Shown: piece by piece, positions 2,898-27,348 of the stretch | Layout: every line of letters begins with the position of its first letter | How positions within the stretch are numbered: position 1 is the stretch's first letter | Virus record (IMG/VR): IMGVR_UViG_3300035670_001020 | Location: 1 to 28,396 of that record | Strand: one strand, 5' to 3' | Source of the DNA: a virus | Length of the DNA: 28,396 nucleotides | Notes under the pieces: generated by a model | What the model saw: only the letters and a program-made list of their open reading frames with translations | What the model was told of the DNA's origin: nothing | The model's database searches: none | Position numbers and translations under genes: made by a program

Positions 2898-4591
2898 CCG
2901 GCAAAAACAGAAGGCGAGAGGTTGCGCTCCAGGGCGCACTCTTGGACCGTATGGCCGCAAGGTTCCAGCGATCTATGGCCAGACAATTGTCCGCAGCCTA
3001 CCGCGCAGGGCTAAAACAATTCGAGCAAGACGGTGGAAGCTCTGGGATAGATTCCGCAATAGATCCTTTCGAGATTCGCCTGACCGCAACCATAAGCACA
3101 GAGGCCCGAGAGATCATTAAGACCTTTGGCGAACGGATCGCGGGCGAGAGCAAGATGCTCAAGAAGGATGTGGGCGACGATCCTTTTGAGGAAGCCTTAA
3201 AGCAATATATTAGAACTTACGGAGTGCAACACGCGGAACTAATAAACCGCACGACCAAGGAACAGCTAAAGAAACTGATTGAGGCAGGAATAGATGAGGG
3301 GCTGGGTACAGAAGCGATTGCTCGCAATATACAAAAGCAAATCCCATCTATTGCGCGATACAGGGCAGCGACTATCGCCAGGACAGAAACGCACACGGCG
3401 GCGAATGTTGGCTCACAGGCGGCTGCGGAAGCCACGGGACTAGCCCTTATAAAAGAATGGGGCGCGGCAGAAGACGAGCGCACCCGAGAAACACACGCCG
3501 AGGCAGATGGCCAACAGGTTCCGATGGACGGATTATTTTCGGTGGGTGGTTACGATCTACGATTCCCAGGCGATCCTTCTGGCCCACCAGGTGAGACCAT
3601 TAACTGTTTCACAGGTGACACCTTAGTCAGCTTCCAAAGCTGCAAAAAAGCCTTTAGAAGCCTCTACACAGGCGAGATGATCACCATTGAGACTTCCGCT
3701 GGCTATAAGCTCACCGGAACCCCTAATCACCCCGTAATGACGGACCGTGGATTTATTCGCCTCGATGAGGTCGATCATTTGACTAATCTTTTCTGCTGCC
3801 CGATGGAGCAGAACTTTGTTGGCGATCTTGATGTAAAACACGTTCCATCCACCTTTGAGCAAGTATTCAATGCGCTTTCTATAAAATTTATGGGTATGCG
3901 GGTGGCTGGGGTTGACGTGAATCTCTATGGCAGATCGCCCAATAGCCAAGTCGATGTTGTAAACGTCGAAAGCAAGCTGAGGAATACATGGTTTGCCAAG
4001 ATCAGCAAAAGCAAGCCCAAACTCTTTCTCAAGGCTTCCAACCTTTGCAAGGGATCTTTGCTTGGTAATGGCTTGCTTAACAGAAGACTCCCAATGAAAC
4101 TCTTTGGGTTTACTTCTAATAGATTGATTGGCTTTCTCAACTTGCTTCTTTCTTTGCGCCTCAGTCATCTGAGACCATTTCAGTTTTTCAGATTCGCTCT
4201 GGTTCCGAATTGCAACGCCAGCCTTTACAAGAGCAATTCTTATCGCAGTTCTTCCGACTCCAAGCCGATTAGCGACTTCATTTTCACTAACACCAGACAA
4301 ATAAAGGTCAACGGCTTTTTGACCAATAACCTCATAAACAAACTTGCGCCGTTTGATTCCGAGCTTTCTACAGTTAGAAAAAACCCAAGCCTGACTAGCG
4401 TTGAACTCTTTCATGATCTGAGGAATAGGAAGACCCGCCATGTACATCTCGACAAGCCTGTTTTGATCAAAAGATTTTTTAGCCATGAAACCCCCGTTTA
4501 CACGCTAGAAACAAATGAAGGCGCATACAACGCTGGGGGCATTATCTCACAGAACTGCCGGTGCGTTCAATTATTCCTTGCCGCTGATTGA
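2885..4591 (+). CDS. Head morphogenesis (Mu gpF/SPP1 gp7-like) protein interrupted by an intein
   Basis: A 568-residue precursor, starting at GTG with GGAG five bases upstream. Residues 1-240 and 558-568 make up a 251-residue minor head protein after removal of residues 241-557. Extein features typical of the family are the helical segment with ARTETHTAANVGSQAA, then EWGAAEDERTRETHAEADG, and the reconstituted NCRCV motif near the C-terminus. Such proteins join portal and capsid during assembly and may be ejected with DNA. The intein sits before the first Cys of NCRC, so the ligated product depends on splicing. The gene follows the glycosyltransferase block and precedes the prohead protease, normal for HK97-type heads apart from the inserted glycan genes. 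Extein Leu codons include TTA and CTA; the intein has none between its L7 and its block F. Confidence 0.9.
   Translation: MRYITGKNRRREVALQGALLDRMAARFQRSMARQLSAAYRAGLKQFEQDGGSSGIDSAIDPFEIRLTATISTEAREIIKTFGERIAGESKMLKKDVGDDPFEEALKQYIRTYGVQHAELINRTTKEQLKKLIEAGIDEGLGTEAIARNIQKQIPSIARYRAATIARTETHTAANVGSQAAAEATGLALIKEWGAAEDERTRETHAEADGQQVPMDGLFSVGGYDLRFPGDPSGPPGETINCFTGDTLVSFQSCKKAFRSLYTGEMITIETSAGYKLTGTPNHPVMTDRGFIRLDEVDHLTNLFCCPMEQNFVGDLDVKHVPSTFEQVFNALSIKFMGMRVAGVDVNLYGRSPNSQVDVVNVESKLRNTWFAKISKSKPKLFLKASNLCKGSLLGNGLLNRRLPMKLFGFTSNRLIGFLNLLLSLRLSHLRPFQFFRFALVPNCNASLYKSNSYRSSSDSKPISDFIFTNTRQIKVNGFLTNNLINKLAPFDSELSTVRKNPSLTSVELFHDLRNRKTRHVHLDKPVLIKRFFSHETPVYTLETNEGAYNAGGIISQNCRCVQLFLAAD
3623..4486 (-). 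CDS. Putative homing endonuclease encoded antisense inside the intein
   Basis: A 287-residue protein on the strand opposite the intein. Residues 16-44 (IPQIMKEFNASQAWVFSNC) and 62-90 (SENEVANRLGVGRTAIRIAL) are two helix-turn-helix segments. Residues 110-140 are basic and probably a linker. Residues 150-222 match the Vsr/DUF559-like nuclease fold: E153 or E155, D179 in YNIDLAI, E188-I-H190, H196, R203, R205 and GGWNVFYIKI. This combination resembles the EDxHD homing endonucleases found with phage introns and inteins. Residues ~225-287 are antisense to intein blocks A and B and are probably a non-conserved tail; the stop is the complement of the TTA codon for intein L7. ATG is preceded by GGGGG four bases upstream. 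It presumably cleaves intein-free alleles of the head gene; that is inference. Confidence 0.82.
   Translation of the reverse strand: MAKKSFDQNRLVEMYMAGLPIPQIMKEFNASQAWVFSNCRKLGIKRRKFVYEVIGQKAVDLYLSGVSENEVANRLGVGRTAIRIALVKAGVAIRNQSESEKLKWSQMTEAQRKKQVEKANQSIRSKPKEFHWESSVKQAITKQRSLAKVGSLEKEFGLAFADLGKPCIPQLAFDVYNIDLAIGRSAIEIHVNPSHPHTHKFYRKRIEYLLKGGWNVFYIKIANKVLLHRAAEKISQMIDLIEANKSTVRHYGVIRGSGELIASGSLNGDHLACVEASKGFFAALEAD
4491..4495 (-). promoter_or_regulatory. Ribosome-binding site of the antisense endonuclease
   Basis: On the minus strand, GGGGG lies four bases before the ATG at 4486 (GGGGGTTTCATG). The same arrangement (GGGGGTTTT then ATG) precedes the unrelated plus-strand gene at 20182, so this phage seems to accept it as a Shine-Dalgarno sequence. 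On the plus strand these bases encode Thr-Pro just before intein block F. Confidence 0.5.
4541..4570 (-). promoter_or_regulatory. Candidate sigma-70 promoter for the antisense endonuclease
   Basis: Reading the minus strand, TTGAAC (complement of 4565-4570) is followed after 18 bases by GATAAT (complement of 4541-4546), a 4/6 and 5/6 match to consensus. Transcription would begin near 4534 and give a leader of about 48 bases before the endonuclease ATG. The boxes lie in DNA encoding the end of the intein and the first downstream extein residues. Support is only pattern matching. Confidence 0.33.
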
Positions 4592-8201: not shown

Positions 8202-8617
8202 ACGCAGAGCTAGAGATACAGAAGGCCATCTATGATGTTCTGGCAAATGACTACACCCTATCTAATATGGTTACTGGTGTCTATGACTCCGTCCCGCAGG
8301 CAGAAGACGCAGGATCGGATGTAGCGTTTCCTTATGTGACCATCGGAGACGATACGGCTCTGGACTGGAACACGGACACCAGCAACGGCAAAGAGGCGAC
8401 GATCACGGTGCATTCCTGGTCGCGCTATCGTGGCCGGTCAGAGGTAAAAGAAATACAGGGCGCAATATATGAGGCTTTGCATCTAGCGAATATCCCCGTG
8501 CAGGGCTACAATCTAGTGGAATGTTGGTCGGAGTATTCGGAAACATTAGTAGACCCCGATGGCTTGACCAGGCATGGTGTACAGCGGTTCCGACTGATTA
8601 TTGATAAGGAGATTTGA
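8198..8617 (+). CDS. Tail terminator-like protein (DUF3168 type)
   Basis: A 139-residue protein with an ATG overlapping the previous stop. ELEIQKAIYDVLANDYTL, FPYVTIGDDTALDW and ATITVHSWSRYRGRSEVKEI followed by IYEALH are characteristic of the DUF3168 family, which caps the tail tube and sets the head-tail junction. Length and position between the gp10-like gene and the major tail protein match this role. Confidence 0.83.
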   Translation: MNAELEIQKAIYDVLANDYTLSNMVTGVYDSVPQAEDAGSDVAFPYVTIGDDTALDWNTDTSNGKEATITVHSWSRYRGRSEVKEIQGAIYEALHLANIPVQGYNLVECWSEYSETLVDPDGLTRHGVQRFRLIIDKEI

Positions 8618-24003: not shown

Positions 24004-24291
24004 CTAGGTTCTATTATACAGGTGTTCTATTGTCATCGCCAATAGATCTAGCTCGGTCAGTTTGTACCGTGTATAGAAGGCTTTCTCGCCCATGCCGTGA
24101 TAGCCAGAATTTCCCCTATGGTGCTCGGGGCAAAGCGGTATGGTGAGGAAGTTACTAGCCCTCTGAGCCATGCCTTGCCCATGTCTAAGGTGATGGATCT
24201 CTGCGGGCGTGTCGTCAAAGCCAAGATGTTTACAGAGGATGCAGCCGATCTCGGCCACACGGTTTAGGTGTTCCTTCTCAGATCTGCTCAT
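24004..24291 (-). CDS. Ref-like HNH nuclease (RecA-dependent nuclease family)
   Basis: A 95-residue protein. Zinc and active-site elements are C17-x2-C20, AEIHHLRHGQGMAQRASNF (H33, H34), IPLCPEHHRG (C54, H57, H58) and GYHGMGEKAF (H65). The order C-x2-C, HH-x2-HG-x-GM, C-x2-HH is that of the P1 Ref family, whose P1 member cuts DNA at RecA filaments. It is a domain-only version. It lies between a recombination exonuclease and an epimerase gene, overlapping the latter by 14 bases. Its 3' end contains the likely promoter and operator of the next leftward unit. Confidence 0.85.
   Translation of the reverse strand: MSRSEKEHLNRVAEIGCILCKHLGFDDTPAEIHHLRHGQGMAQRASNFLTIPLCPEHHRGNSGYHGMGEKAFYTRYKLTELDLLAMTIEHLYNRT
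24013..24042 (-). promoter_or_regulatory. Promoter for the exonuclease-ssb unit
   Basis: On the minus strand TTGGCG (complement of 24037-24042), an 18-base spacer and a perfect TATAAT (complement of 24013-24018) lie within the 3' end of the HNH gene, about 30 bases before the exonuclease ATG. The leader then has AAGGAGAAG before the start, similar to the leader at 27338. Confidence 0.55.
24026..24046. promoter_or_regulatory. Operator-like inverted repeat over the exonuclease promoter
   Basis: TCTATTG (24026-24032), seven bases, CAATAGA (24040-24046): a perfect 7-bp inverted repeat overlapping the spacer and -35 of the exonuclease promoter. The same half-site recurs at the divergent promoter region 27251-27319, which suggests one regulator for both. 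Confidence 0.45.
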
Positions 24292-25207
24292 GGTCGAACC
24301 AGGTCACGAACTTGTCGATCCCTGCCTGTACGGTAGTGGTGGGCGCAAACCAGAACTTGTTTTCTAGCTTCGCGGTATTGGCACAGGTCATTATCATCTC
24401 GCCTTCGTCTGGCTCGCGATAGATCTTCTGCGCCTTCTTGCCGACCCGTTCTTCTATGATCTTTATAAACTCCGAAAGACGGATCATCTGCCCGCCCCCG
24501 ATGTTATAGACCTGGTGGCCGGTAGGCTCATGACCTACTACCCGTAGTATGCCCTCCACAATGTCATCGATATAAGTGAAATCCCTAAACATCCGTTGCT
24601 CATCGTGAACGATGATCGGAAAGCCCTTCTTTATAGATTCGACAAACTTCCACGCTGCCATGTCTGGCCGACCCCAAGGACCGTATACGGTGAAGAACCG
24701 CAAACCCGTCAGGATCATCTGGTGATTCTGCGCATAGGTCTCTGCCATTTTTTCGTTCAGCATCTTGGTCACGCCATACCAGGAGGTTGGCTTCATCTCC
24801 TGGGACTCGCAGAAAGGCGTCGGATTCGCCCCATAAACCGATGACGACGAGGCGTAGATGATAGGTATATCGGAACCTTTGAAAGCCTCCAGAAGCCTGT
24901 AGAAGCCCGTTACATTGCAATGGTAGGTTTGGTCTGGATTGTCTCTGCTGGCGCGCACTCCAGGTTGAGCAGCTAGGTGGATGATCCCATCGTAGTCGTC
25001 TGCAACCCCTGAAATGTTGTCAAGCTCTAGGCGGTGAAAGACGAAAGGCTTGTGGGTCTGTAGATCCTGCAACCGTTTCATCTTTAGCCGCACATCGTAA
25101 TAGGCATTCAGGTTATCTATGCCAACGACCTCGTTGCCTTCCTGAAGCAATCTCTTACTTACCGCGTGGCCGATAAAGCCCGCGCATCCGGTGACTAGGT
25201 ATCTCAT
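24278..25207 (-). CDS. NAD-dependent sugar-nucleotide epimerase (UDP-glucuronate 4-epimerase-like)
   Basis: A 309-residue short-chain dehydrogenase of the extended type. The NAD-binding motif is TGCAGFIG (G7, G10, G13). D31-N32 and HLAAQPGVR with NVTGFYRLLE are typical of UDP-sugar epimerases. The catalytic residues are the Ser run 120-123 and Y144-x3-K148 (WYGVTK). RFFTVYGPWGRPDMA and FRDFTYIDDIVEGI complete the family signature. The closest resemblance is to UDP-glucuronate 4-epimerases. It would make UDP-galacturonate or a similar donor, perhaps for the glycosyltransferases near 836-2897. It lies among replication genes, and overlaps genes on both sides. Confidence 0.88.
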   Translation of the reverse strand: MRYLVTGCAGFIGHAVSKRLLQEGNEVVGIDNLNAYYDVRLKMKRLQDLQTHKPFVFHRLELDNISGVADDYDGIIHLAAQPGVRASRDNPDQTYHCNVTGFYRLLEAFKGSDIPIIYASSSSVYGANPTPFCESQEMKPTSWYGVTKMLNEKMAETYAQNHQMILTGLRFFTVYGPWGRPDMAAWKFVESIKKGFPIIVHDEQRMFRDFTYIDDIVEGILRVVGHEPTGHQVYNIGGGQMIRLSEFIKIIEERVGKKAQKIYREPDEGEMIMTCANTAKLENKFWFAPTTTVQAGIDKFVTWFDHEQI

Positions 25208-25554: not shown

Positions 25555-26034
25555 TTATCTGGCTAGTCTTAAAGAATTTAAGATGCTTCCAAGCTCTACA
25601 GCATCTTTATCCTCTCCGCTTTCTGTTTTCTGCTGCTCTCTCTTATCGCCGCTGATCTCAACTTGCAATTGGCGAATAATCCTATAGCCAAGATTGAATG
25701 GGCTCTCGTCTTCCTTTGGCGCAAAATCTGGCCGACCAGCGTCAATCATTGCTCGCCCAAAATCTTTTAAGGTCTGTTCTCTTTTCTTTGATACAGGTAC
25801 GAGCATCACGGCATAAGCCGCCCGTATAAAGTCGAAGTTCTGGCGAACTAGTCTGGTGATTTCTCCTGTTAGCTTCTCATTGGTCTCCGTATGAAATCCG
25901 CACCAATAACTCGGGTTCGGTGTTGTGGATGTATGCCGGCCATAAGTACCCGCCATCGGGCAACCATGAGCAGAGCATAAAGTCGGACCAACCGCAGGGG
26001 CTGGTGCTGGAAGTTCAAGTTCTTTAGACCGCAT
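25555..26034 (-). CDS. Zinc-finger-containing replication-region protein
   Basis: A 159-residue protein from the ATG at 26034, which overlaps the upstream gene by 11 bases; an extended frame to 26100 runs inside that gene and is not used. Near the N-terminus, C20-x4-C25 and C45-x2-H48 (LCSAHGCPMAG ... YWCGFH) could bind zinc. The rest is helical (ITRLVRQNFDFIRAAYAVML, KKREQTLKDFGRAMIDAG). It follows the initiator-like gene, where a helicase loader or primosome protein is often found, but no Walker motif is present. Function is unassigned. Confidence 0.72.
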   Translation of the reverse strand: MRSKELELPAPAPAVGPTLCSAHGCPMAGTYGRHTSTTPNPSYWCGFHTETNEKLTGEITRLVRQNFDFIRAAYAVMLVPVSKKREQTLKDFGRAMIDAGRPDFAPKEDESPFNLGYRIIRQLQVEISGDKREQQKTESGEDKDAVELGSILNSLRLAR

Positions 26035-26785
26035 GGTATTTACCCTCAATAAGTTTGGCCCAGTTCTGCGGGCGAAGTATCCATTCAAGCTCACACTCAA
26101 AAGCCCGTTGGCCAGGTTTAGGGTTGACCTTGCCCATCAGGAATTTCGATTGCCTGATCCAGTTAAACAGCTTCTCGAAATACTCTAGTCCATCCTGGCC
26201 GCTTGACCACTCCAACCTCTTTGCTGTCTCTCGCCATCGAGCCTTAAGCAAAGATTCCCTGGTGGTGTTCCAGATCCTCACCTCTGGAAGCTCTGGCAAG
26301 ACCTTATGAAATAGATCAATGATCTCTTTGTGAGGGCAGGTCGGGATGCTTCCCGACAAAGAACCTTTAGGTTCTATTGGTTTTAATACTGGTTCTTGGT
26401 TATTGGTTAATGGTTCTTGGTTATTGGTTGGTTGAACGTCCGTTGAACGTGCGCTCAACCGTCGTTCAGCAGACGCTTTACCAGCCTTAGATGCTTGCTC
26501 GCTTTTAGACCTGAACTTTGCGATTTCTTCTTCAGCTCGTTTATTGACCCAGCCATCTGCCTGTAAAACAAAGAAGGTCTGCAAAACGAAAGCGACTTCA
26601 TCTTCCTGGTCGCGCATACCAATCTGCCGAGCAACGGTCGTTATACATTCGTTGAACGGACGTTCGTGTAAATAGTATTCGTCAAGAAGTCTTCTGTATG
26701 CCAGATCCTCTAACAGACTGAGGCTTCTGGTATGGCTAGCGTAATCACCAATATTGAACTGGTAGTAGTGCAAGGCAATCTCCAT
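26024..26785 (-). CDS. DUF1376 (YdaU-like) replication initiator-like protein
   Basis: A 253-residue protein. Residues 1-105 are the DUF1376 domain: LHYYQFNIGDYASHTRSLSL, LEDLAYRRLLDEYYLHERPF and a winged-helix-like remainder. A low-complexity linker (QPTNNQEPLTNNQEPVLKP, 118-136) follows. The C-terminal part (~150-253) has YFEKLFNWIRQSKFLMGK and FECELEWILRPQNWAKLIEG, typical of phage replication proteins. Genes of this type occupy the position of lambda O. As in lambda O, the linker DNA carries iteron-like repeats, so the origin may lie inside this gene. An in-frame stop lies upstream with no other start. Confidence 0.84.
   Translation of the reverse strand: MEIALHYYQFNIGDYASHTRSLSLLEDLAYRRLLDEYYLHERPFNECITTVARQIGMRDQEDEVAFVLQTFFVLQADGWVNKRAEEEIAKFRSKSEQASKAGKASAERRLSARSTDVQPTNNQEPLTNNQEPVLKPIEPKGSLSGSIPTCPHKEIIDLFHKVLPELPEVRIWNTTRESLLKARWRETAKRLEWSSGQDGLEYFEKLFNWIRQSKFLMGKVNPKPGQRAFECELEWILRPQNWAKLIEGKYHAV
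26391..26475. repeat. Iteron-like repeats inside the initiator gene (candidate origin)
   Basis: An 18-bp unit GGTTCTTGGTTATTGGTT occurs at 26391-26408 and again at 26412-26429. It is followed by GTTGAACGT at 26431-26439 and 26442-26450, and by TCAAC in inverted order at 26455-26459. CGTTGAACG recurs at 26650-26658. The repeats encode the NNQEP linker and lie next to an AT-rich stretch, which resembles lambda-type origins inside the initiator gene. Confidence 0.55.
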
Positions 26786-27249: not shown

Positions 27250-27278
27250 GCAATAGATCGGTAAAAACATTTTATCAA
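27250..27278 (-). promoter_or_regulatory. Weak candidate leftward early promoter
   Basis: On the minus strand TTGATA (complement of 27273-27278), a 17-base spacer and TATTGC (complement of 27250-27255). The -35 is good but the -10 matches only 3/6. It would transcribe the 27230 gene with a short leader and overlaps one of the repeated boxes. Confidence 0.28.
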
Positions 27279-27319
27279 TAATCTATTGCAAGATCTATTG
27301 TCCTATGTATAATAGATCG
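27251..27319. promoter_or_regulatory. Cluster of four CAATAGATC-like operator boxes
   Basis: CAATAGATCG at 27251-27260, ATCTATTG at 27281-27288, GATCTATTG at 27292-27300 and AATAGATCG at 27311-27319. Two boxes lie in each orientation. They flank or overlap both divergent promoters, and the half-site is shared with the inverted repeat at 24026-24046. This is the layout of a phage repressor-operator region, though no repressor gene is visible in the window. Confidence 0.5.
27286..27313 (+). promoter_or_regulatory. Rightward early promoter
   Basis: TTGCAA (27286-27291), 16-base spacer, perfect TATAAT (27308-27313). Transcription would start near 27320, giving a ~30-base leader with AAGGAG (27338-27343) before the ATG at 27349. 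One operator-like box lies in the spacer and another overlaps the -10. Confidence 0.68.
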
Positions 27320-27348
27320 TGTAGTGCAACCCAATCAAGGAGAAAGAA

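Follow-up and report, generated by a model that had tools for sequence, protein, structure and literature searches.

A candidate lambda-type replication origin of 11-bp and 7-bp repeats within a phage DUF1376 gene

We describe an element of two adjoining tandem repeats that is probably a phage replication origin of the lambda type, situated inside the gene of its own initiator. The phage is the whole IMG/VR virus record IMGVR_UViG_3300035670_001020, and its 28,396 bases are the stretch of DNA analyzed here (hereafter the window). Computation revealed the repeats, their two non-codon periods, their conservation as DNA, the co-inheritance of the 11-bp repeats (iterons) with the N-terminal domain, a stability minimum at the 7-bp heptads, and the replication-gene neighborhood of relatives. 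The distinctive points of the element are the paired 11-bp and 7-bp codes laid over a coding linker and an N-domain/iteron cassette exchanged at their boundary. No description of such an 11-bp plus 7-bp element was found in the open-licence literature searched.

Results

The element lies in a DUF1376 initiator-like gene

The gene and the two domains that flank its linker are as follows.

26024-26785, minus strand: DUF1376 initiator-like gene (253 aa), containing the element
26519-26770, minus strand: DUF1376 domain, residues 6-89, predicted winged helix (Pfam and AlphaFold model); proposed iteron-binding domain
26027-26350, minus strand: C-terminal domain, residues 146-253, all helical (model, pLDDT 93); proposed helicase-recruiting part

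A sequence-only reading of the window had placed the repeats in a DUF1376 gene, and the PF07120 match bears this out (E 1.6e-22; 80.1 bits against a Pfam gathering score of 30.1). PHROG matches fall on both halves of the protein, with primosomal families on the N-terminal half and replication-initiation and O-like families on the C-terminal half. The AlphaFold model has pLDDT >90 for most of residues 11-100, which form helices plus a beta hairpin, and the best structural neighbors of the DUF1376 domain were mostly winged-helix domains, with modest Z scores of 5-6. A predicted disordered linker of residues about 113-150 is encoded by the repeats. The modeled C-terminal domain resembles phage replisome organizers, and its BFVD matches were named replisome organizer, replication protein and replication initiator. 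A Foldseek search of the PDB with the full protein model returned no significant match, a second structural comparison with the C-terminal model gave no match above Z 2.6, and a PDB sequence search with alignment gave no convincing match. An SSB, a Sak-type annealing protein and a RecA-dependent nuclease are encoded near the element in this phage record. ORF 24278-25207, which stands among phage recombination genes, resembles an NAD-dependent sugar epimerase gene, as judged by eye.

Two repeat modules adjoin in the interdomain linker

The tandem repeats are placed inside the initiator gene, in the linker between its domains. Read 5' to 3' on the sense strand, the linker DNA runs from the 11-bp repeats into a 42-bp heptad array and then into small hairpins.

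26429-26472, minus strand: 11-bp repeat block (lag-11 signal; co-inheritance with the N-domain); proposed initiator-binding iterons
26429-26439 and 26440-26450, minus strand: 11-bp units, sense ACGTTCAACCA and ACGTTCAACGG
26451-26461 and 26462-26472, minus strand: 11-bp units, sense, diverged CGGTTGAGCGC and weak CTGCTGAACGA
26388-26429, minus strand: six-unit 7-bp array (lag-7 signal; codon tests; stability minimum); proposed DNA-unwinding or single-strand element
26388-26429, minus strand: contiguous heptads, in order AACCAAT, AACCAAG, AACCATT, AACCAAT, AACCAAG, AACCAGT
26361-26374, minus strand: small inverted repeat GAACC-TAAA-GGTTC (seen in the sequence; short hairpins are enriched downstream in relatives)
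26340-26357, minus strand: small inverted repeat GTCGGGA-AGCA-TCCCGAC
26650-26658, minus strand: third GTTGAACG copy, within DUF1376-domain coding; a doubtful member

There are at least three 11-bp repeats if the diverged CGGTTGAGCGC copy is included. The units from 26429 to 26461, perhaps to 26472, carry a GTTCAAC core, and the near-palindromic core of the repeats is CGTTCAACG; copies of GTTGAACGT start at 26431 and 26442, and copies of CGTTGAACG at 26441 and 26650. The 42-bp heptad array is G-poor and of the AACCAAK type. Neither 7 nor 11 is divisible by three. Out of all 28,396 bases, the strongest stretches at lag 7 (23/28; next 16) and at lag 11 (17/22; next 13) are these two adjoining blocks. 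The longest exact direct repeat within 60 nt measures 19 nt, whereas 300 codon shuffles of the gene never gave one longer than 10 nt, and a chance origin of the repeats was rejected on this basis.

The sequence-only reading had been built on two 18-bp repeats and further short copies, all of which we recovered. Within the window the exact 18-mers occur only at 26391-26408 and 26412-26429, and they encode linker as had been claimed, with the peptide TNNQEP-L-TNNQEP. The 21-bp spacing from which two helical turns had been read is present, but since the underlying unit is 7 bp it represents three heptads rather than helical phasing. Both 18-mers belong to a separate array of 7-bp units, the weakest duplex of the region, which looks like a melting element. 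The broader proposal of phased iterons in an initiator linker gained good support from comparison with relatives, with the correction that the iterons proper are the 11-bp GTTGAACG-type units and not the 18-mers. The further copy at 26650 does exist, but it falls where the conserved peptide ERP[FL]N is encoded and is indistinguishable from coding constraint.

Both periods recur in relatives

Protein similarity yielded 71 genes, which together with the window gave 72 distinct genes. In those that were long enough, linker DNA autocorrelation was 0.62, 0.60, 0.59 and 0.48 at lags 7, 14, 21 and 28, compared with about 0.26 in the rest of the gene. The array was also present in 72 of 87 representatives (<60 percent alike), and these 72 were used for the lag-11 mean. 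Upstream of the array the mean peaked at lags 11, 22 and 33 (0.46, 0.43 and 0.42, against about 0.25 elsewhere), and in the same 72 representatives these peaks were absent downstream of the array and in N-terminal coding. Lag-7 counts are biased in the 87-representative subset because most of its members were chosen by the 18-mer; lag-7 figures are quoted from protein- or Pfam-chosen sets only.

Thresholds for individual genes were set on 667 flanking coding windows, defined as stop-to-stop frames of >=390 nt on both strands, some of which are not real genes. Among 16 named phages, 12 passed at lag 7, 2 at lag 6 and 6 at lag 11; nine protein-chosen representatives gave 9 passes at lag 7 and 8 at lag 11. 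A set chosen by the Pfam model only comprised 25 DUF1376 genes from 398 Pseudomonadota genomes (25 of 33 Pfam places; 4 without an N-domain profile match, 1 masked and 3 without a locus were left out). Here 9/25 passed at lag 11, 4/25 at lag 7, 6/25 at lag 6 and 3/25 at lag 12, while none of the 25 passed at lags 5, 8, 9, 10 or 13. Both modules (lag 11 plus lag 7 or 6) were found in 5/25 of these genes versus 0/667 controls. Many DUF1376 genes of bacterial genomes are without one or both modules, and neither Rac YdaU nor Acinetobacter phage QH4 has an array over threshold. DUF1376 genes thus commonly, though not always, carry the element. Among seven records compared (six named phages plus the window), the DUF1376 gene held the strongest lag-7 stretch in 7/7 and the strongest lag-11 stretch in 3/7.

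The sequence of the array differs among relatives at the same 7-bp spacing, with units such as AAGCCAG, ACCCAAT and ACACATA, and in Pseudomonas phage AH02 and Bordetella phage IFTN2 the heptads are replaced by 6-bp arrays. At loci L220, L228, L242, AH02 (L208) and IFTN2 (L209), the same or a related 11-bp iteron type is followed by 6-bp arrays of CACAGA, ATACAG or AACCAG; at L224, L232 and L236 the arrays are rich in AAAG. We discarded the idea that the GT-rich strand forms G-quadruplexes, as arrays of the ATACAG and ACACANN kinds are without regular GG runs. DUF1376 genes also occur in three plasmid records of 38-61 kb (NZ_CP124656.1, NZ_CP156790.1 and NZ_CP026617.1), which are possible phage-plasmids.

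The repeats are conserved as DNA rather than as peptide

A DNA-only scan of IMG/VR with the 18-mer matched at least 120 stretches. Among the matches listed, the 18-mer lay inside an open frame in 117/118 loci, the exception (L175) being near a contig end. When the 118 18-mer-bearing proteins were scanned (117 among the matches listed plus the window), 112 matched DUF1376 and 115 a primosomal PHROG. Of its 86 occurrences in the first 80 loci among the matches listed, 63 put the 18-mer in the frame of TNNQEP and 22 in that of PITKN, and in Sinorhizobium phage phiLM21 the 11-mer and the heptad each pass through several reading frames within one gene. The outcome named by the sequence-only reading as speaking against it, with linker residues kept and DNA scrambled, was not what we found; the repeats are conserved at the DNA level, and the reading frame varies.

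Codon usage and a same-peptide control point in the same direction. In 88 protein-chosen genes, TNN[QH] was encoded as ACC-AAT-AAC-CA[AT] in 96/100 cases, and isoleucine in the array was ATA in 50/66 versus 287/1139 elsewhere; both counts are inflated by the relatedness of the genes. A within-gene synonymous shuffle is a weak test because the array holds much of the gene's Asn, Gln and Thr, and it was replaced by the flanking-coding and same-peptide controls. For the latter, KPITKNQ was sought in every possible coding, giving 95 distinct matches among the matches listed from 120 stretches, with DUF1376 membership assigned by an N-domain profile built in this analysis. Among the matches listed, its DNA was within one mismatch of the heptad DNA in 23/23 DUF1376 genes (18 exact) and in 4/72 other genes, and at least one of those four (L370) looks like a cut-off initiator linker. 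Amino-acid selection as the cause of the repeats was rejected on the same-peptide control and codon usage.

The stop-free heptad array matched at least 120 stretches, with 83/90 occurrences among the matches listed in DUF1376 genes; a version with a stop in every sense frame matched 16 stretches, 2 of them with a DUF1376 gene. Because (AACCAAT)n is thus also found in 14/16 stop-version stretches without DUF1376, the heptad array alone is not diagnostic of an origin, and more weight falls on the 11-bp block. Phage contigs without a DUF1376 match (L478, L480-L485, L487-L493) carry perfect (AACCAAT)n arrays of ~28-55 nt; several of these lie just upstream of an ATG, and they may be leader or ribosome-site repeats in a different phage group. 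In L479 (near 4386-4410) and L486 (near 8593-8617), the DUF1376 frame ends at a stop inside a kept heptad array, leaving the N-domain as an apparently separate short protein.

Iterons are inherited with the N-terminal domain

Iteron sequences vary between lineages (CGTTCAACGGA, GTGCACG, ATGCGAACGC, ATGCTTGNGC, GGAACCGGATC) with the 11-bp step kept, and by eye a few groups appear to use a 12-bp step. In 193 genes passing filters, the partial correlation of iteron similarity was 0.48 with the N-domain versus 0.12 with the C-domain. Pairs with the same N-domain and different C-domains (1135 pairs) had an iteron similarity of 0.55; pairs with the same C-domain and different N-domains (89 pairs) had 0.10, compared with a background of 0.12. 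In 18/18 pairs with alike C-domains and unlike N-domains, one of them the window and L003, DNA identity was 47-62 percent over the N-domain and iterons and 71-93 percent over the array. Module swaps break at the 11-bp/7-bp junction. Such co-inheritance is what would be predicted for a replicon-specific site read by the N-domain; it is also expected from simple linkage, because the 11-bp block adjoins the N-domain.

The array is a local stability minimum followed by hairpins

Mean helix stability in 77 genes was about -1.43 kcal per step over the iterons and -1.27 and -1.19 over the array, a local minimum; positions outside the array ranged from -1.31 to -1.45, with stability climbing again past it. 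Base composition of the array sense strand is skewed to about 53-56 percent A and 25-33 percent C, with 4-7 percent G, and the 42-bp array adjacent to the iterons is thus a strand-asymmetric, low-stability A+T-rich stretch of the ~40-bp kind expected at a lambda-type origin. A perfect stem of >=6 bp occurred within 75 nt downstream of the array in 39/97 genes versus 143/2001 control windows (97 of at most 116 genes, the rest being below the array-score threshold or too near the gene end). Among stems of 5 or more, four-base loops were over-represented (37/59 versus 135/568).

Genomic neighborhood

In 9/16 named relatives the adjacent gene is annotated as a helicase, helicase loader, P protein or putative replication protein. 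Family and profile searches recognized no helicase or loader among the neighboring genes of the window. ORF 25555-26100, just downstream of the DUF1376 gene, had no family match and its relative search was empty; in relatives its place often holds a helicase or loader. Farther along, four (C)AATAGATC copies in both orientations lie at 27250-27321 between divergent genes, likely a Cro/CI-type operator region upstream of the leftward operon with the DUF1376 gene. Cumulative GC skew, suggested as a check by the sequence-only reading, decided in neither direction: the minimum lay near the gene in 2/7 genomes (ctTUS972 and Thalassomonas phage BA3) and away from it in 234P9, X14, phiLM21, P19250A and the window; the skew tracked gene orientation and was uninformative.

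Discussion

From these data we infer how binding, melting, helicase loading and initiation might proceed at the element. The DUF1376 winged-helix domain would bind the 11-bp repeats, and since these lie one helical turn apart, several bound copies could stack on one face of the helix. The bound iterons would then strain the adjacent 42-bp A/C-rich heptad array and cause it to melt, a step that leftward transcription through the gene would aid, as in lambda. Finally, the opened heptads might be held as single strands while the C-terminal domain recruits a DnaB-type helicase or its loader.

The closest parallel to this arrangement is the lambda origin, where, according to PMC5043065 and PMC7466680, initiator repeats are followed by ~40 bp of A+T-rich, strand-asymmetric DNA that O binding opens. 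The repeats here likewise separate the N- and C-terminal coding parts of the initiator gene and lie beside an A+T-rich, strand-asymmetric stretch of ~40 bp, in the same order as in lambda, and the C-terminal half of the window protein matches O-like families. The two systems differ in that lambda iterons are 18-19 bp long with inverted symmetry and bind O dimers, whereas the window has 11-bp units, in which the CGTTCAACG core is near-palindromic. In addition, the candidate melting element here is a tandem array of 7-bp (sometimes 6-bp) units, and the N-terminal domain is DUF1376.

Other systems share single aspects of the element. The parS sites of pSM19035, in the portion of PMC9499535 that concerns them, consist of 7-10 WATCACW copies with one dimer of Omega (ParB) per unit, and the heptads resemble them as contiguous tandem 7-bp DNA units. 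However, parS differs in sequence, in its partition function, in its ribbon-helix-helix protein, in lying at promoters and in having no 11-bp module. Here the units have the form AACCAAK, and a predicted winged helix is the candidate for binding, which places the element outside the Omega/parS group. DnaA boxes with the DnaA-trio of oriC offer a further likeness, as double-strand initiator sites beside a short repeat that possibly acts single-stranded; the DnaA-trio is a 3-nt repeat read by DnaA, whereas the candidate single-strand repeat here is 7 nt. In iteron plasmids such as RK2, P1 and F, iterons are about 17-22 bp long and lie outside the initiator gene, unlike the 11-bp repeats inside the gene described here. 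What these plasmids share with the element, according to their treatment in PMC5043065, is helically phased initiator repeats beside an A+T-rich region.

Alternatively, the 11-bp repeats might constitute an autoregulatory operator or roadblock by which the initiator controls its own operon or dosage, with replication starting elsewhere. We consider this unlikely. One-turn repeats co-inherited with a winged-helix domain would fit any cooperative binding site, but an operator leaves unexplained the adjacent low-stability heptads, the downstream hairpins, and why the site would occupy the linker of an O-like initiator instead of a promoter. The array might instead be a recombination joint for swaps of the N-domain and iterons against the C-domain, kept alike through exchange or repeat slippage and having no origin function. 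The rise in DNA identity at the iteron/array junction in 18/18 pairs is consistent with such a joint, as is the occurrence of (AACCAAT)n repeats outside initiator genes; we nevertheless regard it as improbable, given that it accounts neither for the 11-bp repeats nor for the 7-bp units of other sequence and the 6-bp arrays at the same site.

An element acting in RNA, in which the transcript serves as a Rho-loading or translation-tuning site, could draw on the C/A-rich, G-poor composition of the array sense strand. This seems very improbable to us, as an RNA function does not require the 11-bp helical spacing upstream, and the window has no Rfam match. Hardly credible, finally, is the view that the region is only a low-complexity protein linker, its repeats arising from amino-acid selection or chance. 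The repeats do encode a predicted disordered linker, but periods of 7 and 11 do not fit codon length, more than one frame is used to read the units, and the same-peptide control (23/23 versus 4/72 among the matches listed) refutes this view unless something other than a DNA function shaped the codon pattern.

Returning to a lambda-type origin as the preferred reading, we tentatively raise a more specific possibility, somewhat short of an even chance, that the coding linker carries two codes: one of 11 bp, double-stranded and specific to the replicon, which the DUF1376 domain reads, and one of 7 nt, single-stranded and generic. If so, the 11-bp code would evolve and be exchanged with the DUF1376 domain as a cassette, and the 7-nt code, a phage counterpart to the DnaA-trio, would be recognized by a shared factor, for instance the C-terminal domain or the helicase loader. 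A swap of N-domain and iterons at the heptad boundary would then change origin specificity while the helicase-loading machinery is kept.

DUF1376, a family of unknown function mentioned once each in five papers of the open-licence literature searched, gains from this work a concrete and testable role. The signature of 11-bp repeats followed by a 7-bp array could be used to locate candidate origins in many uncultured phage genomes. Moreover, if the cassette idea holds, the iterons and N-domains of many lineages would constitute a data set on how initiators recognize their origins.
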